Below are positions 94-10,275 of a stretch of 10,275 nucleotides of DNA, piece by piece. Source of the stretch: an uncultured Elusimicrobia bacterium. GTDB taxonomy: Bacteria; Elusimicrobiota; Elusimicrobia; Elusimicrobiales; Elusimicrobiaceae. Within the stretch, counting starts at the first letter, position 1, and each line of letters begins with the position of its first letter. The translations under genes and the position numbers were made by a program. Where the stretch lies: assembly GCA_945483375.1 (NCBI GenBank), contig CALYRQ010000018.1, positions 1-10,275 on the forward strand. Reading direction: 5' to 3'. Under the pieces are notes generated by a model, which did not search any database, was not told where the DNA came from, and saw only the letters and a list, made by a program, of their open reading frames with translations.

Positions 94-528
94 TTATTGC
101 CATTTGCCACTTTGCATCATGGCGGCATTTTCGCGCGCACGCGCTCCTACTTGCAAGGCCCAGCGGCTTAACAACATTTCCAAGGCAGCGGTTTCATAAT
201 CTCCCGCAGCGCAGGCGGCCAGCATTTTTTTGAACCTTTTTAGGCTGGAAATCCCCAAATTAAAACACATATCCACCAACACAAACCGGCGCACGTCATT
301 CAGTTTATTCCACCAGACAAACGCCCCCTTAACAGCCGAAACGGCGGCTTCAACATCTTGGCGCAGAATAAACTCCGCCGCTTCCGCGCTGATACCGCAT
401 TCCAAATTATGCCCGTAACCAACGGTTAAATGACCCGCCGGGCATTTATAAGGCAGGCGGGAAAACCCCTCTCTTCGTCGAAGGATAGTTAATATTTCTT
501 TTTCAGGAAACTCCGTTAAATGACACAT
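94..528 (-). CDS. Phage lysozyme (endolysin), GH24 T4-type muramidase
   Basis: This 144-residue protein should cut the beta-1,4 bond between MurNAc and GlcNAc in peptidoglycan at the end of the lytic cycle. The GH24 signature is clear: EGF at residues 20-22, then TVGYGH at 35-40. The catalytic triad has the family spacing of Glu20, eight residues, Cys29, five residues, Thr35. Cys replaces the Asp20 of T4 lysozyme, a substitution known in this family. The C-terminal half keeps the T4-like DMCFNLG and SRW stretches and ends in SGKW. There is no signal peptide or SAR helix, so export should depend on a holin. AGAGG lies 5 bases before the start. It reads in the same direction as the spanins but is separated from them by the opposing pilin gene. 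Confidence 0.93.
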   Translation of the reverse strand: MCHLTEFPEKEILTILRRREGFSRLPYKCPAGHLTVGYGHNLECGISAEAAEFILRQDVEAAVSAVKGAFVWWNKLNDVRRFVLVDMCFNLGISSLKRFKKMLAACAAGDYETAALEMLLSRWALQVGARARENAAMMQSGKWQ

Positions 529-567: not shown

Positions 568-595
568 TTGTTTTTACGGCGTTTTTTGCTATACT
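568..595 (+). promoter_or_regulatory. Candidate sigma70-type promoter for the pilin gene
   Basis: TATACT at 590-595 matches the -10 consensus TATAAT in five of six positions and is preceded by TG at 587-588, an extended -10. TTGTTT at 568-573 gives a partial -35 with a 16-base spacer. The predicted transcript would begin near 602 and leave about 40 bases of leader before the pilin start. It points away from the lysozyme gene, so the pilin would be transcribed independently of the late phage operon. The match is good, but no transcript start is proven. Confidence 0.6.
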
Positions 596-625
596 ATTGG
601 GTAGACGCGCAAGCGTATTTAAAAC

Positions 626-632
626 AAGGGAG
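626..632 (+). promoter_or_regulatory. Ribosome binding site that fixes the pilin start
   Basis: AAGGGAG ends 9 bases before the ATG at 642. It decides between that ATG and an upstream in-frame ATG at 597. The upstream ATG overlaps the promoter region, has no Shine-Dalgarno sequence, and would put 15 extra residues before the class III prepilin leader, which is normally very short. Confidence 0.75.
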
Positions 633-641
633 ATTAACACT

Positions 642-1148
642 ATGAATAAAGGTTTTACGCTTATTGAATTATTGGTTGTGGTGCTGATTGTCGGTATTTT
701 ATCCGCCGTGGCGCTGCCCCAATACACGACGGCCGTTGAAAAAGCTCGCTCCGCCGAAGCGTTAACGCTGATGAGCGCGGTGGCCGGATCGGCCGAACGC
801 TATCTGCTGCAAAAAGACGTATGGCCCACCGATTTTGCCAAACTGGACGTGGAAGTACCGCTCGTAAAAGGCAAAACCGGCGTATACGGCGGTAAAAACT
901 TCTCCATCACCATGGGCACCTCCGGCAGCAATTTTTACATCACCGCCGTACGCGATCTGTCTGCCACCGGCGGGCAGTATTCCCTGCAAACCGTGCTGAC
1001 CGAAAACTCCAACGGCACCATTTCTTCGCTGCGCAGATGCTGTTCCGGCGCGGCCACGGCGGGTTCCTGCACCACCACTTTTACGGCGGACAGCAAACAG
1101 GAAAAATTCTGCAACGCGGTTTCCAACGGTAAACCGACCGACTTCTAA
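642..1148 (+). CDS. Type IV prepilin (PilE/PilA-like) encoded inside the prophage late region
   Basis: This 168-residue protein has a textbook class III signal. The leader MNKG is followed by a cleavage point between Gly4 and Phe5, with Glu at +5 of the mature form (residue 9). A hydrophobic helix runs over about residues 5-25, ending in ALPQY. The mature protein would be N-methylated on Phe and assembled into a type IV pilus or pseudopilus by host PilD, PilB and PilC homologues; none of these is encoded here. The C-terminal domain carries four cysteines (133, 134, 143 and 157), consistent with the disulfide-closed D-region of type IVa pilins. Length is normal for a major-type pilin. It lies opposite to and between the spanin and lysozyme genes, with its own promoter and terminator, which suggests a lysogenic-conversion gene acquired from a host. 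It could instead be a minor pilin; the N-terminus alone does not decide that. Confidence 0.93.
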   Translation: MNKGFTLIELLVVVLIVGILSAVALPQYTTAVEKARSAEALTLMSAVAGSAERYLLQKDVWPTDFAKLDVEVPLVKGKTGVYGGKNFSITMGTSGSNFYITAVRDLSATGGQYSLQTVLTENSNGTISSLRRCCSGAATAGSCTTTFTADSKQEKFCNAVSNGKPTDF

Positions 1149-1167
1149 ATAGCAAACGCTTTACACG

Positions 1168-1194
1168 CCCCCGGCTTTAGACCGGGGGTTTTTT
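1168..1194 (+). terminator. Rho-independent terminator of the pilin gene
   Basis: A perfect 7-bp GC stem, CCCCCGG (1168-1174) with CCGGGGG (1182-1188), encloses a 7-base loop and is followed by six T residues. It starts 20 bases after the pilin stop codon. On the minus strand no T-tract follows the stem, so it should stop the pilin transcript but not the opposing late operon. The T-tract ends 2 bases from the stop codon of the Rz1-like gene. Confidence 0.9.
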
Positions 1195-1196
1195 AT

Positions 1197-1409
1197 TTAT
1201 GGCAGTTTGGTCCGCCCGCAGGCCGCCTCAAAAGCCGCCACGGCCCGCAGGTTTGCCAAGGATAAATCCGCCAGGGCGGGATCCGTCACGTCAAAACGGA
1301 CGGTACACAAAGCGGCGTTATTTTTTATGTGCACCGGCGCGCAGGACGCTAAGCAACCCGTCAGCAGACAAACCGTCCACCCGGCGGCGCACCGATTCCA
1401 TTTGTTCAT
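1197..1409 (-). CDS. Rz1-like outer-membrane lipoprotein (o-spanin) candidate
   Basis: This 70-residue protein has a basic N-terminus, a hydrophobic stretch (residues 8-18) and a lipobox ending at Cys19 (LLTGC). A second possible lipobox ends at Cys23 (LASC). After lipidation it would sit on the inner face of the outer membrane and bind the i-spanin to fuse the two membranes at lysis. It begins inside the preceding i-spanin-like gene in another frame, with 92 bases shared, which is the classic Rz/Rz1 arrangement. The C-terminal half (DLSLANLRAV to the Cys near the end) loosely recalls LysC-type Rz1 proteins. It lacks the proline-rich segment of lambda Rz1. Gene order and lipobox are seen directly; spanin function is inferred. 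Confidence 0.62.
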   Translation of the reverse strand: MNKWNRCAAGWTVCLLTGCLASCAPVHIKNNAALCTVRFDVTDPALADLSLANLRAVAAFEAACGRTKLP

Positions 1410-1527
1410 ACGAATGCACCTCCTCCCGCAATTTTTTCAGCCGTTCGGCGCGGCGACCCGCTTCATACGCGCGCCACAGGCATAAGCACGCCCCCGCCGC
1501 GCAGACCGCCCAAACATATGCCGTCAT
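1318..1527 (-). CDS. Rz-like inner-membrane i-spanin candidate
   Basis: This 69-residue protein has one N-terminal membrane segment (about residues 3-19) followed by a charged, helix-prone region (RAERLKKLREEV onward) that would project into the periplasm. This type II topology with a coiled-coil-like ectodomain fits an i-spanin, which pairs with the Rz1-like lipoprotein to disrupt the outer membrane. It is very short: lambda Rz is 153 residues, and the ectodomain here is only about 50. Its ATG overlaps the stop of the preceding holin-like gene as ATGA, so it is probably translationally coupled; the local Shine-Dalgarno (GGAAAAG) is weak. Assignment rests mainly on topology and on the nested lipoprotein gene. 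Confidence 0.58.
   Translation of the reverse strand: MTAYVWAVCAAGACLCLWRAYEAGRRAERLKKLREEVHSYEQMESVRRRVDGLSADGLLSVLRAGAHKK
1419..1426 (-). promoter_or_regulatory. Strong ribosome binding site for the Rz1-like gene, inside the Rz-like gene
   Basis: On the minus strand the sequence reads GGAGGAGG, with the AGGAGG core 9 bases before the ATG at 1409. A consensus Shine-Dalgarno at the right distance inside another coding frame is the best evidence that the nested lipoprotein gene is really translated. Confidence 0.75.
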
Positions 1528-1724
1528 TTGGCTTTTCCGACGAAAGACCCGTCCGGATTCACCAAAGACAGCGCCGCCAGAACGGAAATAATTTTCGCCA
1601 GAATAGCGTCATCCTTGGGGGTCGGCGTCAGTTTAACGACGGCCGTCGCCGCCGTCACCACTCCTCCCAATACGGCAAGCACGCCTTGCCAGTTTTCACT
1701 GCACCATTGAATAACCTGCGTCAT
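1524..1724 (-). CDS. Small phage membrane protein, holin candidate
   Basis: This 66-residue protein has one clear membrane helix at about residues 13-31 (VLAVLGGVV then TAATAVVKL), the stretch TPTPKDDAIL, and an amphipathic C-terminal helix. The pattern of one helix, then TPTPKDD, then a helix is one I associate with small phage holin-like proteins. Holins form the inner-membrane lesion that releases the lysozyme and sets the time of lysis. It sits where T7 has its holin, just after the tail fibre region and before Rz, which supports the call. AAGGAGG lies 4 bases before the start. The neighbouring 74-residue membrane protein could instead be the holin. Confidence 0.55.
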   Translation of the reverse strand: MTQVIQWCSENWQGVLAVLGGVVTAATAVVKLTPTPKDDAILAKIISVLAALSLVNPDGSFVGKAK

Positions 1725-1733
1725 ACATCCTCC

Positions 1734-1958
1734 TTATTTTTGAGACGCGCCCAAAAGCATTACTTTAATGCTTTTTACGTCGTCGGCAATCATGTCCAGC
1801 TTGACGTCCGAACGGCCCAAGCGGCCTTCGTGTTCGGACACTTTTTTCTCCAGGCTGTCCACCCGCGGCGGCAGGCCGTTAAGCGTAAAAAACCAAAACA
1901 GCCCCGCCGCCGCCACGCCAAACGCGTATAACCAATCGCGCAAATGTTTTTCGCTCAT
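1734..1958 (-). CDS. Small membrane protein with coiled coil, holin or antiholin candidate
   Basis: This 74-residue protein has a membrane helix at about residues 10-28 (WLYAFGVAAAGLFWFFTL). A heptad-rich segment follows (VDSLEKKVSEHEGRLGR and onward to about residue 68) that looks like a coiled coil. The layout resembles XhlA-type haemolysin/holin partners in general form, although in XhlA the coiled coil precedes the membrane helix. It follows the WCN-motif protein with an ATGA overlap, and its stop codon lies within the upstream edge of the next gene's ribosome binding site. Coupled translation of the two membrane proteins is likely. No specific family is recognised. Confidence 0.5.
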   Translation of the reverse strand: MSEKHLRDWLYAFGVAAAGLFWFFTLNGLPPRVDSLEKKVSEHEGRLGRSDVKLDMIADDVKSIKVMLLGASQK

Positions 1959-2257
1959 ACGCGCGCCCTGAGCGGGACGGCCAATGCTTCGATTTCGTCC
2001 ACGCGCGCCATCAGCGTTTCGTCCAACTCCGCGCCGCCAGCACGCAGCGCAATTAATCCCGTACGAACGGCGCGCGGAAGCCCGTAGGCATTTTCCAGCG
2101 CGGCCACTTTTTCTTCGTCCGTCGGTTCCGGCCTGGGTGTGTTTTTTACAATCACATACGCCCCGTGTTGTTTTTCAATATGCGCGCCATTAGCGTTGCA
2201 CCACACTGCGGCCGCCGTGTAATTTTCTTTCGTTACGGTTTGCCCGATATTAAACAT
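1955..2257 (-). CDS. Small conserved phage protein downstream of the tail fibre, possible fibre assembly factor
   Basis: This 100-residue soluble protein contains YTAAAVWCNANGAHIEK at residues 13-29, then YVIV, a proline/acid linker (PRPEPTDEEK), and a C-terminal helical half with GLPRAVRTGLIAL and VDEIEALAVPLR. I recognise this two-part pattern as typical of small proteins coded just after tail fibre genes in many tailed phages. Their role is not established to my knowledge; tail fibre chaperone is a reasonable guess from position. It overlaps the end of the tail fibre gene by 8 bases and has a strong AAGGAGG Shine-Dalgarno. No membrane segment is visible. Confidence 0.55.
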   Translation of the reverse strand: MFNIGQTVTKENYTAAAVWCNANGAHIEKQHGAYVIVKNTPRPEPTDEEKVAALENAYGLPRAVRTGLIALRAGGAELDETLMARVDEIEALAVPLRARV

Positions 2258-3836
2258 TTTCCCCTCCTTGTCCTTTGGCTTCCCAATACGCAGAAACGGT
2301 ATCTTGATTTCCGCCGTATAAATAAAACCCGGTGGCCGTTACCTCATTGGCCCGCGCCGGCCACCCGTCCCCCGTTTTATTGGCGGAGCCGGTTATCACG
2401 TTTGGCAGAGAGGAATAGGGTTTTAAAAACGTAATGTTTCCTTTTCCGTAACCGCCCTGTTCCACCCACCCGCTTTTGTATTTGCGGTACCAGTTGCCGT
2501 CTTCACCGTGATAACTTTCCACTACAAAATCAACATCGGCCTGCGTCTTGCCGGAAGGCAAATCCAATTTGCCGGATAGCGCATTTTGAAACTCCGCCGC
2601 AGCAGCCGTACTGGCGGGGACCGCCGCGTTATACGCGCACACCCACGGATACAGCGTGGTATGCGCAGGGGTTACGGTGTCGGAATTGCCGTACACGGCA
2701 CTTGAACGGGAGGCGTCAAAATATGAGGTAATATTACTCGTAGTGCTCCCAGAAATTCCTACAGTACCCTTAATACTTTCAGTTGTATTTGAAAACGCCC
2801 CAACTCCTCCAGTTGTATTTACGCCTGTTTGACCTGTGATATTGGGCAGTCCTGCCTCGCCCTGCGTAATTCCGTCAGCAGTATTTGCGGCCTTAATATA
2901 GTTCTTTAGTAACGGCAAGCGTAAATTTCCGTCCGCCAGCACATACTTGGGACATTCCCCATACGTGCTAAGGGCGGCCTCGTACTCGGCGGCGGTACAC
3001 GTAAGGCCGGAGTGATTTTGAAGCCACGCGTAAAAATCCGGGTACAGCGTATCCGCCGAAGCGATTGTTTCCCCCGTAAAAAGCGGCAAGGCGCCAGGGT
3101 TGTCCGTTTCGGCGGAGCTTTGGGAATAATACACTTCCCCCACGGTTTTACCGATACTCCGCTCTGCATAATAGCGCGCCGTTTCGGCTTCGTTCTGCGC
3201 GGCGGACAGATATGTTTGGAGCGTGTTTTCCACCGCCGCCCCGCTGGCCGCGATGTCGCTCTGCGCGGAGTCTTTGGAAGAAGCAATCGCCGCCAACGCA
3301 CTCTGCGCCGTCTGCTGGGCGGTCGACGCGCTGGCCTGCGCCTGTTGGGCGGAAGACACCGCCGCCGAAGACGCATTTAACGCATCCTGTTTGATAGCCA
3401 GAATGTTGCGTAAAAAACTGTCCGTTTCCAAATTATCCACGATGGTGGAAACGGGATACTTGATACTGCGGGAAACTTTTTCGTTCAGCTCCTGCATCAT
3501 AAGCGTCAGTTTATCGTAACCGCTTTCCAGTACCTCCGCGTCCAATTCGCCCTGGCGCAACAAGTCAATCTCCTGCGTCAGCGGCGTATGGCGTTCCAAG
3601 GTCAAACTCCACCCCTCCGCCAGCGGCGGTTTACCGCTGGAAAGCGTGGGATATTCCAATTCCGTCCCGGCGGCATTGAGTTCAAAATCTTCCGCCAGTT
3701 CCGTTTCCGCCCCTGCCGGAGAAGTAATGTACACCCGTACGTCTTGAGGGGAAGCAAGCGGGAAGTCCACCTCCCACCGGCGCGTAACGCCGTTTCCCGC
3801 GTAAATGCGTTTGCTGACTTGCATTGAAACCGTCAT
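2250..3836 (-). CDS. Tail fibre protein with T7 gp17-type N-terminal domain
   Basis: This 528-residue protein is close to T7 gp17 (553). Residues 1 to about 127 match the T7 tail-fibre attachment domain: a start like IYAGNGVTRRWEVDFPL, then DVRVYI, and the LTLERHTPLTQEIDL stretch. An alanine-, glutamine- and serine-rich segment at about 150-225 is a probable trimeric coiled-coil rod. The middle (about 255-400) resembles collar-type fibre repeats, with LRLPLL and, after a Gly/Thr/Ser-rich stretch, YPWVCAYNAAVP. The end carries the common VVESYHGEDGNWYRKY and GWVEQGG motifs of fibre tips. The N-terminus would bind the tail tubular proteins and the tip would bind the host receptor. AGGAGA precedes the start and overlaps the stop of the upstream gene. 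A segment near residues 340-372 has clearly lower GC than its surroundings. Confidence 0.88.
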   Translation of the reverse strand: MTVSMQVSKRIYAGNGVTRRWEVDFPLASPQDVRVYITSPAGAETELAEDFELNAAGTELEYPTLSSGKPPLAEGWSLTLERHTPLTQEIDLLRQGELDAEVLESGYDKLTLMMQELNEKVSRSIKYPVSTIVDNLETDSFLRNILAIKQDALNASSAAVSSAQQAQASASTAQQTAQSALAAIASSKDSAQSDIAASGAAVENTLQTYLSAAQNEAETARYYAERSIGKTVGEVYYSQSSAETDNPGALPLFTGETIASADTLYPDFYAWLQNHSGLTCTAAEYEAALSTYGECPKYVLADGNLRLPLLKNYIKAANTADGITQGEAGLPNITGQTGVNTTGGVGAFSNTTESIKGTVGISGSTTSNITSYFDASRSSAVYGNSDTVTPAHTTLYPWVCAYNAAVPASTAAAAEFQNALSGKLDLPSGKTQADVDFVVESYHGEDGNWYRKYKSGWVEQGGYGKGNITFLKPYSSLPNVITGSANKTGDGWPARANEVTATGFYLYGGNQDTVSAYWEAKGQGGENV

Positions 3837-3845
3837 ATTATTCTC

Positions 3846-5261
3846 CTACACGTCCAATAAATTTTTAATTTGTTTCCATACGTCCCCGAGGGAACCGATG
3901 GGCGCGTCCGCCGTTAACACCGCATACTGCGCCGCGTACGAATCCTGCGCCGAAAAACCCTTCTTTTGCATCCACACGTCTATCCCGCGGCAGAGTAGTT
4001 CCTGCGCGCGGCGGCTGTCGCCGCTTTGGCGGGCGTGGCGGGAGGCTTCCAGCCGGACATAATCCCGCGCGGAAATTTTCTCCCGTTTAAGTAAACGCGC
4101 ATGTTCTTTTTGCGTGCCTCCAAAATAACAGGCTACAAACTGCGCCGCGTCCGAACGGGTGTTGTCGCCGTCGAAAAATAGCGCCGCCCGGCGTGCTTGG
4201 GCAAGTTCCTCCGCTTCCAGACCGGGCACGCCGTCCAGCACGCTGAGCGCGTCGGCCGAAGGCAGACGGGCCGCCGAAGCCAACGTTTGCGCGGCCAGGG
4301 AGTGTTCCCGCGCGCTTTCCCGGCGGGAAAGCGCTTCCACCGTTTGACGCATCGCCGCGCTTAGTTCCGCATCCGGCTCCTCTATGTGTTCCAACGCATA
4401 ACGGCGGATTTGCCCGGCAGGTCCCCCCGTTTCCAGCCGTCCCTCTTCCCACAGTTTTTCCGCCTGAGTGCGCGCGAACAAAGCGCGCGTTTTGTCCGCA
4501 CAGGTTTGACGGGCCGCACCGGGCAGTTTATCGCCGTGTTTGGAAAGCGTCGCTTCCGCCGCGCGCCAATCGCCGCAGGAAAGGGAACGGCATACGTTTT
4601 CCTCCACCGTTTGCGCCCGCACGGCCCGGGCGTTGGCTTTAACGGAGGCTTCGCTTTCCCCGTTTCCGCGCAACCGTTCTTCATACGCAGTCACCTGGCC
4701 GGAGAGATAGTCCTCCAACGCTTCCGGCGAACGAACCAGCGCGCCAACCTGCCGAAGCAGCGTTTTTTCCGTATCGGCGGACTCGCGCGCCCGGGCGGAA
4801 ACGGAAGCGGCCTGCGCCTCCCGCGCCGCCCGGTGCAGTACGGCATAATCCCGCGCCGCGGGGCCGGAAGCCGTTTCGGACGTAAAGTTTTTTACGGCGG
4901 CGGTTTCCAATGCCTGCACGCCTTTCTCCCCCGCGTCCTGCCGGACGGCGTCCGCCAGGGCCGCGCGCACATTTAAATCCTTATCGGCCAGCGCGCGTTC
5001 TTCCGCTTTCACATTTACGGTTGTCCCGTCAGGAGAATGCAAATTTTCGCCCGACGCCGGATGCGCGGAAACGCTCACGCCTGCGGAAGTGACTCCGGCG
5101 TTTATCTTGGAAGCCGCGCCGATGACTGCAGGGATTAACGTCCCGAAGCGGCTTAAATTGTTTTCGTACGCGGCGGCCAGACGCGCAGGCGCGGGAACGG
5201 AAGAATCCACCCCCGGCGTTTTGATAAATTCCCGTTTGGTTATTGTTGGAATAATCGGCAT
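3846..5261 (-). CDS. Internal virion (core/ejection) protein, gp15-position
   Basis: I place the start at the ATG at 5261 (471 residues, MPIIPTITKREF). A G-rich Shine-Dalgarno (AGGGGGAA) lies just before it and the upstream gene ends 8 bases away; an in-frame ATG at 5312 would overlap that gene with no clear ribosome site. The protein is mostly charged, alanine-rich helix with no membrane segment. One recognisable stretch, about 195-240, reads like GDWRAAEATLSKHGDKLP, a helical motif I associate with podovirus internal core proteins. It sits where T7 gp15 lies, between the gp14-like gene and the fibre. It is much shorter than gp15 (747), and no gp16 equivalent follows. No lysozyme or transglycosylase motif is visible. 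Function is inferred from position and composition. Confidence 0.6.
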   Translation of the reverse strand: MPIIPTITKREFIKTPGVDSSVPAPARLAAAYENNLSRFGTLIPAVIGAASKINAGVTSAGVSVSAHPASGENLHSPDGTTVNVKAEERALADKDLNVRAALADAVRQDAGEKGVQALETAAVKNFTSETASGPAARDYAVLHRAAREAQAASVSARARESADTEKTLLRQVGALVRSPEALEDYLSGQVTAYEERLRGNGESEASVKANARAVRAQTVEENVCRSLSCGDWRAAEATLSKHGDKLPGAARQTCADKTRALFARTQAEKLWEEGRLETGGPAGQIRRYALEHIEEPDAELSAAMRQTVEALSRRESAREHSLAAQTLASAARLPSADALSVLDGVPGLEAEELAQARRAALFFDGDNTRSDAAQFVACYFGGTQKEHARLLKREKISARDYVRLEASRHARQSGDSRRAQELLCRGIDVWMQKKGFSAQDSYAAQYAVLTADAPIGSLGDVWKQIKNLLDV

Positions 5262-5269
5262 CGTTCCCC

Positions 5270-5758
5270 CTAACTGTTCAGCCAGGACAGCCACGTCCCG
5301 CCCACGGTCCACGGTGAAAAAGAATTCTTGGCCATGCGCCGGTATTGGCCCGCCGTAATGTTCAACGCGCGAATGCGCTCAGCGGCGGAGTTATCGTTTT
5401 CGTACAGAGCGTCATTTAAGTTGGCGCGCAGCGTTTCCTGGTCCAAGAGCGCGCCTAAACGCGTATTTTTCAAAATGTTTTGCACCGTAGACGAATTGTT
5501 CGTCAGCCCCGAAGCCGCCATCGCCGTTTTCTGCGCGGACACCGTTTGACGGTACCCGGCATACAAATCACGGCTTCGTTCGGCGGCGGATTTAAACAAA
5601 TACGTCCCCTGCCGCTGAGCCGCGTCTGCGGCGGCTTGCGCCTGATAGTCCGCGTCCGACGCCAGCGCGCGGTAATAAACGCGCCCGGATTTTTGGCTTC
5701 CGAACGCGGACAGCGCGGAAGAGATTTTTCCGCCCGCACTGCTTACTATTCCTCCCAT
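5270..5758 (-). CDS. Internal virion protein B, gp14-like
   Basis: This 162-residue protein (T7 gp14 is 196) starts with a Gly/Ser/Ala-rich stretch. A long helix follows, rich in Ala, Gln and Asp (DADYQAQAAADAAQRQG), and then the motif GYRQTVSAQKTAMAASGLTNNSSTV. The pattern of a long helix followed by a RQ...A..GV-type segment is characteristic of gp14-like ejection proteins, which enter the host envelope during genome delivery. The sequence ends with a Trp-rich GGTWLSWLN. Strong AGGAGG lies 5 bases before the start, and the start overlaps the gp13-like gene by 13 bases. The position between gp13- and gp15-like genes supports the call. Confidence 0.72.
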   Translation of the reverse strand: MGGIVSSAGGKISSALSAFGSQKSGRVYYRALASDADYQAQAAADAAQRQGTYLFKSAAERSRDLYAGYRQTVSAQKTAMAASGLTNNSSTVQNILKNTRLGALLDQETLRANLNDALYENDNSAAERIRALNITAGQYRRMAKNSFSPWTVGGTWLSWLNS

Positions 5759-6240
5759 GAGTTCCTCCTAAAAGTAAAATACAGAAACCGTACGTTGCCG
5801 CAGGTTTTGGACGAGCCGTCAAACCGTCCGCCCAACCGTTTGATAAACCGCAAAGCGGCCGGGTAACGTTCGTCCGTAAAATTGTAAAGTTCGGGGTACA
5901 ACGTTAAAAAACGCTTTACCGACGCCCGCCCGATACGCACCAGCGAAATGGGCATTTTGGCGGCCTCGTTCCCCGTCAAAAACCACACGCACGCCCGAAG
6001 AGAAAACCATCCCGGCGCGCTTACGCCGAACAACGCGGCGGGGCGGCCGTAACGCAAAATAAAAAAGCTCTCGCGCGAGCGGCGGATAAAAGACTCCAAT
6101 AAATCCGCCGGATTTTCGCCCGGGTGCGAAGCCGCCAACTCCGCCCGGTCTTCCGCGCGCAACAAAGGGGCCAGTTTTTTACCGTCGCCCGGGCGCGCAA
6201 AGCGGAGAATAATTTGATGTTTGCAATACAAAAACGTCAT
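5746..6240 (-). CDS. gp13-like internal virion protein A, GNAT-type fold
   Basis: This 164-residue protein (T7 gp13 is 138) begins IILRFARPGD, followed by LLRAEDRAELA at about residues 27-37. It continues with ALFGV (68-72), WFLTGNEAAKM (86-96), and a C-terminal YPELYNFTDERY with FIKRLGG. This is the layout of the GNAT-like proteins coded at the gp13 position of T7-type phages. These proteins are needed for proper assembly of the internal core; acetyltransferase activity is not established. Unlike most of its neighbours it has no Shine-Dalgarno sequence: the bases before the ATG read TATTCTATATTTTT on the minus strand. That segment is also the leader of the opposing membrane-protein gene. Confidence 0.72.
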   Translation of the reverse strand: MTFLYCKHQIILRFARPGDGKKLAPLLRAEDRAELAASHPGENPADLLESFIRRSRESFFILRYGRPAALFGVSAPGWFSLRACVWFLTGNEAAKMPISLVRIGRASVKRFLTLYPELYNFTDERYPAALRFIKRLGGRFDGSSKTCGNVRFLYFTFRRNSWEE

Positions 6241-6282: not shown

Positions 6283-7014
6283 ATGACAGGACTCATTCTC
6301 TTGCTGTTAATCGCCGCGGCGGTGGTATACGCGGTGTTCTTCTTAATCTTCAAAGTAATTTGGATGATTATTAAAAAGCAAAGCAACAAATGGCCGCTTA
6401 TCCTGGCGGGCGTGTGCACCGTGCTTTTCTGCGGAGCCGCTATCGGCGGCGCGGTATGGGGCGTTTACAAAGTAATGAAGCCCTTTTCCGGCATTATGGA
6501 ACGCGTGCAGGCCAACCCGCAGCCCGTGTACGGCCAAACCGTGTATACGGACCCGGAATACGGCTTTCAGGTGACGGTATTTAACGGAATGGACTTTTCC
6601 GATTGGATGCACTTTAACGGCGCGGACGTAAAACTGGGTATCGACACCAACGTCTTTAAAAAAGATAACGCCGGTAAAAACATCGAAGGACCCGTCACCC
6701 TGGCCGCCCTCGTACGTTTGGAAAACGAGCCCGACCAAACCTCTGTAAAAGCGTTGGAACAGGGACTCAAAGCCAATAAAGACCGCCGTTTGGAAGTGAA
6801 CGAAATCCGCCGTACTTCTGTTGACGGTCACCCCGCACTGTATGTTTCCGGCACCGTTTACAGCAACCAAGGCGAAAGCATCCCGGTATGGCTGATGGCG
6901 GCCGAAGACGGCAAATACGTATACTACTTCGGCATCCTGGAAGTTGCCAAGGACGGAAATTCGACGGTGCCCGAACAAACGGTACAAAGCCTGCGTTTTA
7001 CCGCCCAAGATTAA
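6283..7014 (+). CDS. Two-helix membrane protein with exported C-terminal domain, unknown function (moron)
   Basis: The 243-residue product has two strong membrane helices at about residues 3-30 and 38-64, joined by a short basic loop (KKQSNK). By the positive-inside rule the loop is cytoplasmic and the large C-terminal domain (about 70-243) faces the periplasm. This domain has a regular strand/helix mix: YGFQVTVFNGMDFSDW, then VDGHPALYVSG, and YVYYFGILEV near the end. It weakly recalls PsbP/DcrB-like folds, but I cannot assign it. It lies opposite to all its phage neighbours, between tail tubular B and the gp13-like gene, with a Shine-Dalgarno (AAGGAG) and its own terminator. A superinfection-exclusion or surface-modifying role is a hypothesis from topology and context only. 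Confidence 0.85.
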   Translation: MTGLILLLLIAAAVVYAVFFLIFKVIWMIIKKQSNKWPLILAGVCTVLFCGAAIGGAVWGVYKVMKPFSGIMERVQANPQPVYGQTVYTDPEYGFQVTVFNGMDFSDWMHFNGADVKLGIDTNVFKKDNAGKNIEGPVTLAALVRLENEPDQTSVKALEQGLKANKDRRLEVNEIRRTSVDGHPALYVSGTVYSNQGESIPVWLMAAEDGKYVYYFGILEVAKDGNSTVPEQTVQSLRFTAQD

Positions 7015-7068: not shown

Positions 7069-9678
7069 CTAGACAATCCGCGAAATAATAGCCAGAAGCG
7101 TAACCGGCAGCGGTTCCGCCTGGCGGAAAATAACCGACGGCATCAGTCCGTGCGTACCGGCCACCGTCAACGTATAATCCCCCGTTTGAAGCGCGATGGG
7201 AGAGTTAAACGGCTCGCTGGAACGCTGGATTAGTTCGTCCAGTTGCGTTTCGTCCGTTCCGGCTCGGCCGCCGCGGCTGTCCGACATTTTAAGCGTTACC
7301 GACACCAACCTGCGCTTGCGGTCCTGCAACGTACCGCTGTTGTCCGCAAGAGCGGCGGGTAATGTTTGAAGTTCCGCCTCGTACGTAAGCCCCGCGTGCA
7401 CGCACGTCATCGGACGAGGCAACGTTATTTTCCCGTTTGTTACAACCAGTCCCGAAACCGGGCTCCCGTCCGCCAGCACGCCCACTTCGCGCCCTTCCAA
7501 ATGTTCCAAACCGCCCAGTTCCGTAAACGCCGTATCCGCCTTGCGCGATACCGACGCGTCCAAAAATACCTGGTCCTGCGGTTCTTTACTGGATAAACGC
7601 TGTAATAATTTTTCGATAAAATACTTCCCGTCGCGCTCGACGGCAAACCAAACTTCGTCATACCCCCGGTTGGGAATCGTGCACACACTGCGGAAAAACC
7701 CCTGCGTAGTATGATGCGTCCACGCGCACAGGTTTTCCTCGGCCAAATACGTAAGCGTGGCGATTTCCCCGCCCGACAGTACGCACCACACCAAGTTGTC
7801 CGGCTCCTGCTGGTAGCAGACTTCCCGAATCTCCTGGTTAAAAAACAGGTGTTTGGCGCAGAGGGTCAAATCGCTCCCGGTATAGGAGGCGGAGTTGTAA
7901 TCGTAATAAAAATCCCTTAGCGCCCCGCCGCGCGCCTGTACAAACAGCGCCTTATTGCCCACCATCACCGGGAGCGCACGGCTGGCGCCGCGTTCGCTCT
8001 GCTGTTCGATTTGCACGTTATACGGGGTCAGCGCGCCGGAGCTGGAAACCGTCCATTCGCTTCCGGCCGTAAATACCAGCAGTTTCCCCGCAACGGCTAC
8101 GGAGTGGATGGCGTTCAGCTTTTTGCCGGACAAATTCACGCAAAAGCTGTCCGAATCTTCCAGCGCGCCGCGCATATGCCCGAAATGGCCGTGTTCACCG
8201 GTTTTGGAGAACCAAATCGTCTGCGCTTCGGCCCGGGTTCCGGCAAGACCCAAACGGTCCTGATAAAAGAACACGCACGAAGGATAACCCGATTTGGGGC
8301 TGAACGAACCTTCCGCCCAGTCCGAGGTCCAATCCTCCCCGCCCAGGTAACGCTCAATTTGCACCACCGCCTGACGCGGGCCGGCCACATCCGTAATGCG
8401 TACGACGCCTTCCTGCAAAAAACTTTCGGCCTGCAGTTCATATCCCACTTCGCCCGTTACGTTCACCGCGCGCACGCGCAGCCAAATAAGCGCGCCGGTA
8501 TCTTCCAAATTCCCTACGGAAGAGGGCGCCGCTTCCCCGGACGCGCGGGAGAAAAACGTAACCTTTTCCCAGCTCGTCCCATTGTCTTCCGACTTTTCCA
8601 ACACCAGCTGTCCCGTCCAATTACCCGAGGTCCGCAGCCGCCAGTCCGACCCGGTTTTAATAGAGGAAGAAACGCCGTCATACCCCAGCGTGCCCGTCAC
8701 GCACTGGCTTTCCACCCGGTGGGTAAGGCTGAACGCGCCGCCGACATAGTCGGAGGTGAACAAATCAAAATCGCTTTCCAAAAGATAGGTGTCTCCCCCC
8801 TGCACGATTTGTTCCCCCGTGTTGGTGCCCCCGGTAAGCGTATAGACAACCGTCGACAGCGGCGGACGCGTAAACGCAATACGGTACTCCAGCGTTAACG
8901 GCTGTCCGCTCCAATTACCCCCAGTATCCTTGGGGGAAGTAATAGTAATCACGCCGCCCAGACAGACCGCCTGGAAACCCGAAGAGCCAAACACGCGGTT
9001 AAATTCGGACGTAAAAAACCCCGCGTCAAACCCGTAGTCGTGCCCCACAAAAAACCGGACCCCGTTAAAATACCCCACCACAAAACAGCCCGCTTCCGAC
9101 ACCGGTAAAAACGAAACGCGCGCACTGGCGCCCTCCGTCATTACCGTTTCCTGATGGAGCGTAACGCGCAACCGTTTGTCGGCCTGCGTGTTGGCCATTT
9201 TAAAAGGGCCGTATTTTACCGGTAAATCGCTAAATTCAAAGCGTCCGCTTTCCAGACGCACCAAGCGTTTGGGCGGATAAGAAGGGTGCGTCAGAAAAAG
9301 GGTTTGGTCGTACTGGGTGGAATTTAAGGAAGAAAGCTCATGCGCGCCGTAAGGAGTGGCGATTTCATAGACCGAACCGTCCGCATTCAGTAAACGCCCG
9401 GCCGAGGTGTACACGCGCATGTATTTTTCCCCCAGTTCCAACACGTAGGACTCCTCTTTCCCCAATACAAAAGGCAGAATGCGGCAGGCTTTCCCGTCGT
9501 ACTTGGCGGCCCCCATAAAAGCCGTACCGGGCCGGTTGGAGGCCCCGCCCTGCGGGTGCACGTAAAAGTTCCGGGCGGTTTTAAGCCAAGAACCGTAAGC
9601 CGCGCTGTCCACGCGGGCGTAGAGAGAGGGGCTGATTTCGCCCCCCGCAAAAGAAGGCTGTAAATGATGTAGAAGCAT
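7069..9678 (-). CDS. Tail tubular protein B (gp12-like nozzle/stabilisation protein)
   Basis: The 869-residue product (T7 gp12 is 794) opens with the family hallmark: PSFAGGEISPSLYARVD (residues 8-24), then LKTARNFYVHPQGGASNRPG (32-51). Mid-protein it has CVFFYQDRLGLAGTR and QTIWFSKTGEHGHFG (468-500), and later NLVWCVLSGGEIATLTY (628-644) followed by WTHH. These are the conserved blocks of the T7-type tail nozzle, which forms the distal tube of the short tail below the gp11-like ring. Residues about 330-425 look like a beta-rich, Ig-like insert (DWRLRTSGNWTGQL to WLRVRAVN). The start ATG shares its A with the stop codon of the preceding gene (TAATG), so translation is probably coupled. Confidence 0.9.
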   Translation of the reverse strand: MLLHHLQPSFAGGEISPSLYARVDSAAYGSWLKTARNFYVHPQGGASNRPGTAFMGAAKYDGKACRILPFVLGKEESYVLELGEKYMRVYTSAGRLLNADGSVYEIATPYGAHELSSLNSTQYDQTLFLTHPSYPPKRLVRLESGRFEFSDLPVKYGPFKMANTQADKRLRVTLHQETVMTEGASARVSFLPVSEAGCFVVGYFNGVRFFVGHDYGFDAGFFTSEFNRVFGSSGFQAVCLGGVITITSPKDTGGNWSGQPLTLEYRIAFTRPPLSTVVYTLTGGTNTGEQIVQGGDTYLLESDFDLFTSDYVGGAFSLTHRVESQCVTGTLGYDGVSSSIKTGSDWRLRTSGNWTGQLVLEKSEDNGTSWEKVTFFSRASGEAAPSSVGNLEDTGALIWLRVRAVNVTGEVGYELQAESFLQEGVVRITDVAGPRQAVVQIERYLGGEDWTSDWAEGSFSPKSGYPSCVFFYQDRLGLAGTRAEAQTIWFSKTGEHGHFGHMRGALEDSDSFCVNLSGKKLNAIHSVAVAGKLLVFTAGSEWTVSSSGALTPYNVQIEQQSERGASRALPVMVGNKALFVQARGGALRDFYYDYNSASYTGSDLTLCAKHLFFNQEIREVCYQQEPDNLVWCVLSGGEIATLTYLAEENLCAWTHHTTQGFFRSVCTIPNRGYDEVWFAVERDGKYFIEKLLQRLSSKEPQDQVFLDASVSRKADTAFTELGGLEHLEGREVGVLADGSPVSGLVVTNGKITLPRPMTCVHAGLTYEAELQTLPAALADNSGTLQDRKRRLVSVTLKMSDSRGGRAGTDETQLDELIQRSSEPFNSPIALQTGDYTLTVAGTHGLMPSVIFRQAEPLPVTLLAIISRIV

Positions 9679-10265
9679 TAACGCACCCCGCTAAACGCAT
9701 CCTCGGACGGCGCGCGCAGGAAATTTTCCGTCATATTGCTGCGGCGCGCTTCTTCCAAACTAAGCGTATATTTTTGCAAAATTTGGGCGGCCAGCTGGGC
9801 GTCGCCCGTCAGCGCGACGGCCAAATCGCACGCCAACGCCAGGGAGAAAGACTTAACAAACGCCGGATCGAACAAATTTTCATCCGTAATACGGCGCGTA
9901 TATTCCGCATGGGCCGTCCGGCCGGCCACGCTTAACGTGCGGCAGTGCAAATCACTGCGGAAACGTTCTTTAAAGGGTAATGACCGCTGCGGAGCCTGCG
10001 GCAGAAAGATACGCCGGATAAATAATGCCTCGGCCGGATATTTATAGATAAAGGAGCCTTCCGCGTCCGATTCTTTTGCCAGCAACGCCAGCGGCTCGCA
10101 CACACCCGCAAATGCCCAATTATGGGTACGCAGGACTTCATCACGCACCGGCTCGTAAAACAAATTAAGCCGCCGGGCTTTTTCATCTTCTTGGTCCAAA
10201 GAAGAAATCGGAGCCTGCCCCAGCTGGGCTAAAGCCAAATTACAAACCGTAATTTTTGATATCAT
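9678..10265 (-). CDS. Tail tubular protein A (gp11-like adaptor)
   Basis: This 195-residue protein is almost the same length as T7 gp11 (196). The N-terminus has the family pattern VCNLALAQLGQAPISSLDQ (residues 7-25), then EKARRLNLFYEPVRDEVLR (28-46) and HNWAFA. The C-terminal half keeps the LALACDLAVALTGD stretch and a final helical segment before DAFSGVR. The gp11-type ring connects the portal to the tail nozzle and provides the docking site for the tail fibres. An in-frame TAA stop lies just upstream (10269-10271), so the ATG at 10265 is the only good start; no Shine-Dalgarno is seen in the 10 bases left in the window. It is the first gene of the tail block in transcription order. Confidence 0.9.
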   Translation of the reverse strand: MISKITVCNLALAQLGQAPISSLDQEDEKARRLNLFYEPVRDEVLRTHNWAFAGVCEPLALLAKESDAEGSFIYKYPAEALFIRRIFLPQAPQRSLPFKERFRSDLHCRTLSVAGRTAHAEYTRRITDENLFDPAFVKSFSLALACDLAVALTGDAQLAAQILQKYTLSLEEARRSNMTENFLRAPSEDAFSGVR

Positions 10266-10275
10266 TTTTTAAACT

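Follow-up and report, generated by a model that had tools for sequence, protein, structure and literature searches.

We report that a type IV pilin gene of an uncultured Elusimicrobiaceae bacterium adjoins a genus-wide cluster of phage-type particle and lysis genes. On balance we favour the reading that this is a domesticated epsilon15-type particle cluster, resembling a gene transfer agent (GTA), which is accompanied on the opposite strand by three separately selected genes, one for the pilin and two for the membrane proteins o243 and s60. A first-pass annotation of the same DNA had interpreted the pilin gene as a moron, i.e. an independently transcribed gene through which a prophage supplies its own pilin; its description as an independent transcription unit opposite phage genes stands, and most relatives have the pilin at the same site, whereas our data speak against a mobile-prophage origin.

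Results

The window and its genome

The stretch of DNA analysed (the window) is the entire contig C18 (10,275 bases), which belongs to a genome of 1.10 Mb in 201 contigs with a completeness of 76%. Its minus-strand genes, which are of tail, internal-virion-like, fibre and lysis type, make up one half of the particle module of an epsilon15-type short-tailed phage. The capsid gene of the same genome is located on a separate contig, C91, because C18 stops at a very AT-rich gap. This gap lies past position 10275, between the TTA-type tail gene and the phrog_427 gene, and 200 bases of it are 83-96% AT in all 29 regions measured. An AT-rich intergenic gap is also present in the relative G073, and the contigs of several genomes, including that of the window, stop there. 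A second, divergent lysis block is found on another contig of the window's genome, C131 (locus L326), together with tRNA-Thr and an O-antigen-ligase-like gene; either a strain mixture or a duplication may account for this.

A search for host pilins, as suggested in the first-pass annotation, gave 57 prepilin-like matches in this genome at E 1e-3, the pilin of the window counted in; a pilin near any given gene is therefore unremarkable by itself. A large number of pilins is also a feature of Elusimicrobium minutum.

Particle and lysis genes

The lysis end of the minus-strand cluster includes a gene for a GH24-type phage lysozyme (endolysin; 94..528), an earlier assignment borne out by a Phage_lysozyme match above cut-off (PF00959, 57.8 bits, cut-off 22.3; phrog_7). 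An Rz/Rz1-like pair had also been recognised here: the frame of the Rz1-like lipoprotein (1197..1409, near the cluster in relatives as well) has a lipobox and is nested with, and overlaps, that of the Rz-like spanin (1318..1527), which has an N-terminal membrane segment, and the assignment rests on these features, neither gene matching any family library searched (PHROG, Pfam). They are followed by a small holin-like membrane protein, o66 (1524..1724; phrog_9685, of unknown function), present in 21/21 relatives compared, and by a small membrane protein, o74 (1734..1958), and a conserved small ORF, o100 (1955..2257), both with homologues in some relatives. The tail fibre or tail protein (2250..3836) matches phrog_1640 and others with its N-terminus, and the fibre region is one of the cluster's more variable parts. 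A protein of approximately 470-490 residues (3846..5312, start codon uncertain) has no family match and keeps its place in most relatives. Two internal virion protein-like genes, at 5270..5758 (phrog_418, weak, E 2.5e-4) and 5746..6240 (phrog_308, E 2.9e-22), precede the genes for a TTB-type tail protein (7069..9678; phrog_376, E 3e-192) and a TTA-type tail protein (9678..10265; phrog_394, E 3e-42).

In relatives the cluster continues with the genes for the phrog_427 protein, an epsilon15-type capsid (NF045672, 273.6 bits, cut-off 75; PF20911; phrog_212), scaffold/protease (phrog_458), portal (phrog_332), the large terminase subunit TerL (phrog_2) and a small-subunit TerS-like protein. The TerS-like gene lies by TerL in 25/26 TerL regions, TerL itself is up to ~11 kb from the portal gene, and a CI/LexA-like repressor gene is found near TerL in 11 genomes. 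In G031 the particle and lysis genes together span ~16 kb.

Distribution and inheritance of the cluster

The capsid gene was found in 62 of the 66 species of the genus examined; 58 of these 62 gave one match each. It was missed in G006, G012, G067 and G073. The end of a contig carries the tail gene in G012 and the lysis and fibre end of the cluster in G067; part of the tail gene is present in G006. The TTB-type tail gene is present in 37/37 same-genus genomes and in 0/24 genomes of other genera. In a sample of the phylum (n = 247) capsid matches were obtained in 48 genomes, 44 of them of the genus and four of one distant family (30-33% identity), and in none of the 17 sister-genus genomes among those listed.

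The lysis side of the cluster faces a tRNA-Thr(CGT) gene in 31/34 relatives (exceptions G030, G036 and G067); in the window's genome this gene is on C131, and it is also present in G073. On the same side are an O-antigen-ligase-like gene in 29/34 and uvrA in 11/34 relatives, many stretches being too short to include the latter. Vertical inheritance was judged by distance correlation. Compared with rpoB, Mantel r was 0.89 for the tail gene (20 genomes), 0.93 for portal (14), 0.89 for TTA (15), 0.82 for capsid (14), 0.84 for TerL (11) and 0.81 for gp427 (14), with p = 1e-4 for all six cluster genes. The corresponding values were 0.65 for the pilin and 0.90 for the O-antigen-ligase-like host gene, and the capsid diverges at about the rate of RpoB (slope 1.02). 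In a larger set the values for TTB against portal (0.42) and TerL (0.39) were distorted by shortened extracted frames (the G078 portal and the G085 TerL), the genes being unbroken. The particle genes are under purifying selection (dN/dS 0-0.055 for capsid, 0.04-0.15 for portal and 0.06-0.15 for tail). Taken together, the cluster looks vertically inherited, usually single-copy and gene-transfer-agent-like.

The pilin gene and its expression signals

The ORF at 642..1148 on the plus strand encodes a type IV prepilin of 168 residues with all the sequence characteristics of a class III leader protein: a short leader and the N-terminus MNKG^FTLIE, with cleavage between Gly4 and Phe5, Glu at mature position +5 and a hydrophobic N-terminus. 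It scores above cut-off for Pfam N_methyl and TIGR02532 and has four C-terminal Cys residues, two of which (133 and 157) are invariant across 50 aligned homologues. The first-pass annotation had thus described the prepilin correctly, and its promoter, Shine-Dalgarno and terminator assignments were likewise confirmed. The extended -10 element TGCTATACT (587..595, with TATACT at 590-595) was not reported by a simple sigma-70 scan because a -35 element is absent. The 9-mer is found directly upstream of the pilin in 26/28 genomes with the pilin at this site and has just eight other occurrences in the 813,684 bases that the 28 regions comprise, a placement beyond chance; the site pilins of G034 and G036 have close variants. 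Only one of 39 other pilins of the window's genome with enough upstream sequence is preceded by a similar motif. Many of those others (e.g. L022, L025, L029 and L045) show TTGACC, a long T tract and then a GATAACAT-like element upstream. The Shine-Dalgarno sequence AAGGGAGA (626..633) is matched by GGAG-type sites that precede the pilin gene in relatives, and the predicted intrinsic terminator (stem 1167..1189, followed by a T run) has its counterpart, a GC-rich stem and T run, in 27/27 genomes inspected, G025 being left out of the promoter and terminator inspection.

G017, G061 and G064 also have TGCTATACT in the interval separating the CI-like gene from TerS, on the minus strand. In the other CI-bearing genomes the same promoter reads TTACTATACT; a promoter shared by the pilin and the CI-TerS region is at this stage a lead only. 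The minus strand of the CI-TerS intergenic regions contains, in addition, a conserved inverted motif, GGTTAGCAAAGTTAAC, and a TTGACA...TATACT promoter, which are candidates for an operator and a late promoter, respectively.

The pilin has dN/dS values of 0.10-0.36 (18 pairs where computable). Its AlphaFold2 model has a mean pLDDT of 86.9; among solved chains VIA-align ranked type IV pilins first as the closest, and Foldseek gave no match to the PDB at E 0.001. ComP is a DNA-binding minor pilin of Neisseria, and the pilin scored 24.5 bits against Pfam ComP_DUS, below the cut-off of 27.3; matches to this family at E 1e-3 were obtained for 44/50 pilin homologues and for 20/45 other pilins and are thus not specific.

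Position of the pilin gene

The same-site pilin that the first-pass annotation proposed to look for in relatives does exist: among the 35 genomes with the flank covered (that of the window included; G002 and G087, where the site is not covered, are left out) the pilin lies within 4 kb of the lysis genes and in the same orientation in 29. It is 7-14 kb away in G078, G084 and G066, and on a contig other than that of the cluster in G003, G027 and G089. In G084 and G066, at 13-14 kb, it still adjoins the O-antigen-ligase-like gene. The exact 9-mer TGCTATACT is absent from the pilins of these two genomes and from those relocated in G027 and G003. The latter two (L342 and L343) are both situated ~200 bases from tRNA-Asn(GTT). 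The placement between the Rz/Rz1-like pair and the lysozyme, noted earlier, is real in the window, but as a gene order it is peculiar to the window's species and, in part, G085; the pilin is inside the cluster in G028 and G085, and its usual place in other relatives is the outer edge of the lysis block, beside the tRNA.

Two further explanations of the arrangement were considered and rejected. A one-off assembly join at the pilin does not agree with the same order in relatives. That the lysozyme is a host gene marking a border fails as a general rule, its relatives being located inside the lysis block in G003, G017, G027, G061, G064 and G078 and adjoining the pilin in G085.

When each species was represented by one genome, a scan placed 15 of the 16 top-ranking Elusimicrobial pilin loci at the cluster, the exception (L138) being taken as the relocated pilin of G089, compared with 0/53 weaker loci. 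In trees the site-type pilins group as a single clade (30 of 113 rows in one tree; 31 of 43, support 97/81, in another), and the gene is a host-type type IV pilin that has diverged into an orthologous lineage of its own. Neighbours were retained in 27/27 site-pilin pairs at ≥60% identity and in 65/66 pairs at 45-60%, compared with 13/15 and 14/27 pairs, respectively, of other orthologous pilins used as control. The bond between pilin and cluster hence exceeds background only in the 45-60% band. Since other orthologous pilins keep their neighbours too, the linkage may be inherited gene order and proves no function. In seven 20 kb stretches of the sister genus g12 no pilin match was found beside the O-antigen-ligase-like genes (33-35% identical).

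Other opposite-strand genes and the deletion in G073

The pilin was originally placed opposite all phage genes. Its plus strand is confirmed, but it is not the sole plus-strand gene of the window, as o243 (6283..7014, +) shares this orientation. The latter ORF encodes a membrane-anchored protein of 243 residues that has a soluble domain in addition to two membrane segments at its N-terminus (Phage_holin_3_6 was matched below cut-off only), lies between the genes for the tail protein and the internal virion proteins, and is present in 30 and missing in 5 of the 35 regions holding the tail gene. Past the window, beside the portal gene, 32/34 capsid regions have s60 on the plus strand, encoding a two-segment membrane protein of 60 residues. 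By eye s60 resembles the start of o243.

No capsid and no portal gene was found in G073 (93% complete). On a 90 kb contig of this genome (L357:7329-9309) the pilin, o243, an AT-rich spacer of 511 bases (81% AT) and s60 are contiguous and co-oriented, and another pilin follows. The genes retained in this stretch are exactly the three on the strand opposite the particle genes, and the pilin has kept its promoter and terminator. Searches of the L357 stretch with the other cluster queries, CI and TerS gave no match, and with the host queries uvrA and n275 weak partial hits only. The stretch is flanked by tRNA-Thr on one side and on the other by a transporter gene (92% identical to that of G017), which is just beyond TerS in G017 and occurs also in G061, G085, G018 and G089. 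As the G073 pilin nests with those of the cluster-bearing G017, G061 and G064 (support 100/99), loss of the particle genes is the simpler direction of change.

Discussion

According to the available text of PMC9662315, GTAs are derived from tailed phages, endogenised and mostly vertically inherited, package mostly random host DNA and not their own genome as a whole, and deliver this DNA. The cluster has tailed-phage-derived proteins (TerL, portal, capsid and tail families), it is endogenised (tRNA-Thr site in 31/34 relatives; 62/66 species), and it co-diversifies with its hosts in a mostly vertical manner (Mantel r 0.81-0.93, 11-20 genomes). With its ~16 kb (G031) it could, contrary to the packaging rule for GTAs, fit whole in an intact epsilon15-type head. 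In the scenario we favour, the cluster would have become fixed beside tRNA-Thr(CGT) before the genus radiated and been inherited with the chromosome since. As both terminase subunits, portal, scaffold/protease, capsid, tail and lysis genes are kept, a DNA-filled particle released by lysis is the likeliest product, which as a gene-transfer-agent-like element might package and transfer host DNA. The pilin, o243 and s60 would be transcribed and selected separately from the particle genes. The pilin would be made by non-lysing cells and assembled by the host type IV pilus machinery, serving on the receiving side either as an attachment surface or as a DNA-uptake pilin feeding ComEC and DprA (present in 41/41 and 39/41 genomes), and for o243 and s60 a role in shielding the cell envelope of kin is possible. 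Counting against this scenario are the pilins away from the lysis genes (6/35), the four pilins lacking the exact 9-mer (G027, G003, G084 and G066), the control pilins that likewise keep their neighbours, the unspecific ComP_DUS match below cut-off, the absence of o243 in 5/35 regions and the CI repressor in 11 genomes.

The independent promoter and terminator, opposite strand and conserved place of the pilin would also suit a temperate phage that brought it, altered the pili of its lysogen and blocked superinfection, and a CI-like repressor, seen in 11 genomes, is what a recent prophage would have. We nevertheless hold such an origin to be very unlikely and have rejected it as the main reading: the cluster is genus-wide, vertically inherited and at a fixed tRNA-Thr site, the ORFs listed and scanned included no gene for an integrase or for replication, and instead of the patchy, mobile occurrence expected of an active prophage we find 62/66 species and distances that follow rpoB. 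Nor was there any att-like repeat of the tRNA of at least 14 nt, except one of 18 nt in G085. A megablast against phages gave no match, a scan of IMG/VR with the tail protein none that was confirmed, and of the 84 IMG/VR loci retrieved with the pilin or the lysozyme L093 alone matches the tail protein (25%). The search of phage proteomes proposed in the first-pass annotation turned up no phage contig with more than the conserved N-terminus of the pilin, and the nearest phages reach 41% (capsid) and 37% (tail protein) identity at best. Moreover, the pilin is kept where capsid and portal are gone (G073) and lies away from the cluster in six species, which argues against a prophage-borne pilin.

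A stronger competitor, to which we assign a little less than even credence, is that the cluster is domesticated and the pilin an ordinary host pilin beside tRNA-Thr that has no functional tie to the particle. Such a passenger agrees with the 57 prepilin-like matches in the window's genome and with non-site orthologous pilins that keep their flanks too; in addition, the G084 and G066 pilins have kept the O-antigen-ligase-like gene as neighbour at a distance of 13-14 kb from the lysis genes, and G003 and G027 have the cluster and the pilin on different contigs. It accounts less well for neighbours being kept in 65/66 against 14/27 pairs in the 45-60% band, for a promoter type found in 1/39 other pilins, and for retention of the pilin together with o243 and s60 in G073. 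An immune non-producer would keep precisely these genes after losing the particle, as expected if the cluster were a domesticated PBSX-like killer particle directed at non-kin, with the opposite-strand genes conferring immunity and the pilin acting as a changed self receptor. Selection maintaining the particle, fibre and lysis genes and a more variable fibre region agree with this; the retained terminase and portal, by contrast, fit any DNA-filled particle, and we consider a killer particle improbable.

Going further than the domesticated, GTA-like cluster itself, one may picture a new GTA lineage of the Elusimicrobiota, descended from an epsilon15-type podophage, with a donor kit (particle and lysis genes) and a receiver or self-protection kit (pilin, o243 and s60) on opposite strands; this is a speculative extension that we put forward as rather doubtful. 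If true, the donor kit, suicidal for its bearer, would have been discarded in G073, leaving a natural lineage of receivers only. Comparing the genus-wide cluster with G073, which has lost the particle genes but retains these three, allows one to ask in concrete terms who bears the cost of such particles and who gains from them, and more generally a pilin adjoining phage genes is not necessarily a moron of a prophage. In the literature as far as available, few GTAs are known outside the alphaproteobacteria, and the sole podovirus-like one found dates from 2026.

Comparison with known systems

Among phages, the epsilon15-like podophages (phiV10, BcepC6B and SPN1S) resemble the cluster, with capsids 39-41% and tail proteins 35-37% identical and the same kinds of head and tail genes; their complete phage records are ~38-45 kb, whereas the cluster amounts to ~16 kb of particle and lysis genes. 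The dispersed type IV pilins of the Elusimicrobiaceae, dozens per genome, are of the same prepilin type as the site pilin, which differs from them in having its own clade, promoter and site beside particle genes. We know of no pilin beside the head-tail cluster of RcGTA or other alphaproteobacterial GTAs. These agents have a different phage ancestor from the cluster; like it, they are tailed-phage-derived, chromosomal, vertically inherited and slow-evolving, and in the available parts of the sources their recipients need competence proteins and genes outside the particle, including tadB, co-evolve (PMC9662315, PMC10883770). Our literature search, which covered few subscription journals, found neither a GTA of the Elusimicrobiota nor a pilin in a GTA locus.

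Also among the closest counterparts is FpGTA of Faecalibacterium prausnitzii, a podovirus-like GTA described in 2026 with particle, proteomic and packaged-DNA evidence; in the accessible portion of that report its genes, which may be split over loci, occur in all Faecalibacterium genomes examined there, and a pilin is nowhere mentioned (PMC12946183). Both systems belong to gut anaerobes and have podovirus-like TerS-like, TerL, portal, scaffold, capsid and lysis genes, as far as the available text tells; they differ in phylum and in the capsid, which in the cluster is epsilon15-type by annotation (PMC12946183). Compared with FpGTA, the Elusimicrobiaceae cluster would represent a candidate from a different phylum and a different type of podophage, and it would add genes on the opposite strand and a naturally occurring loss.
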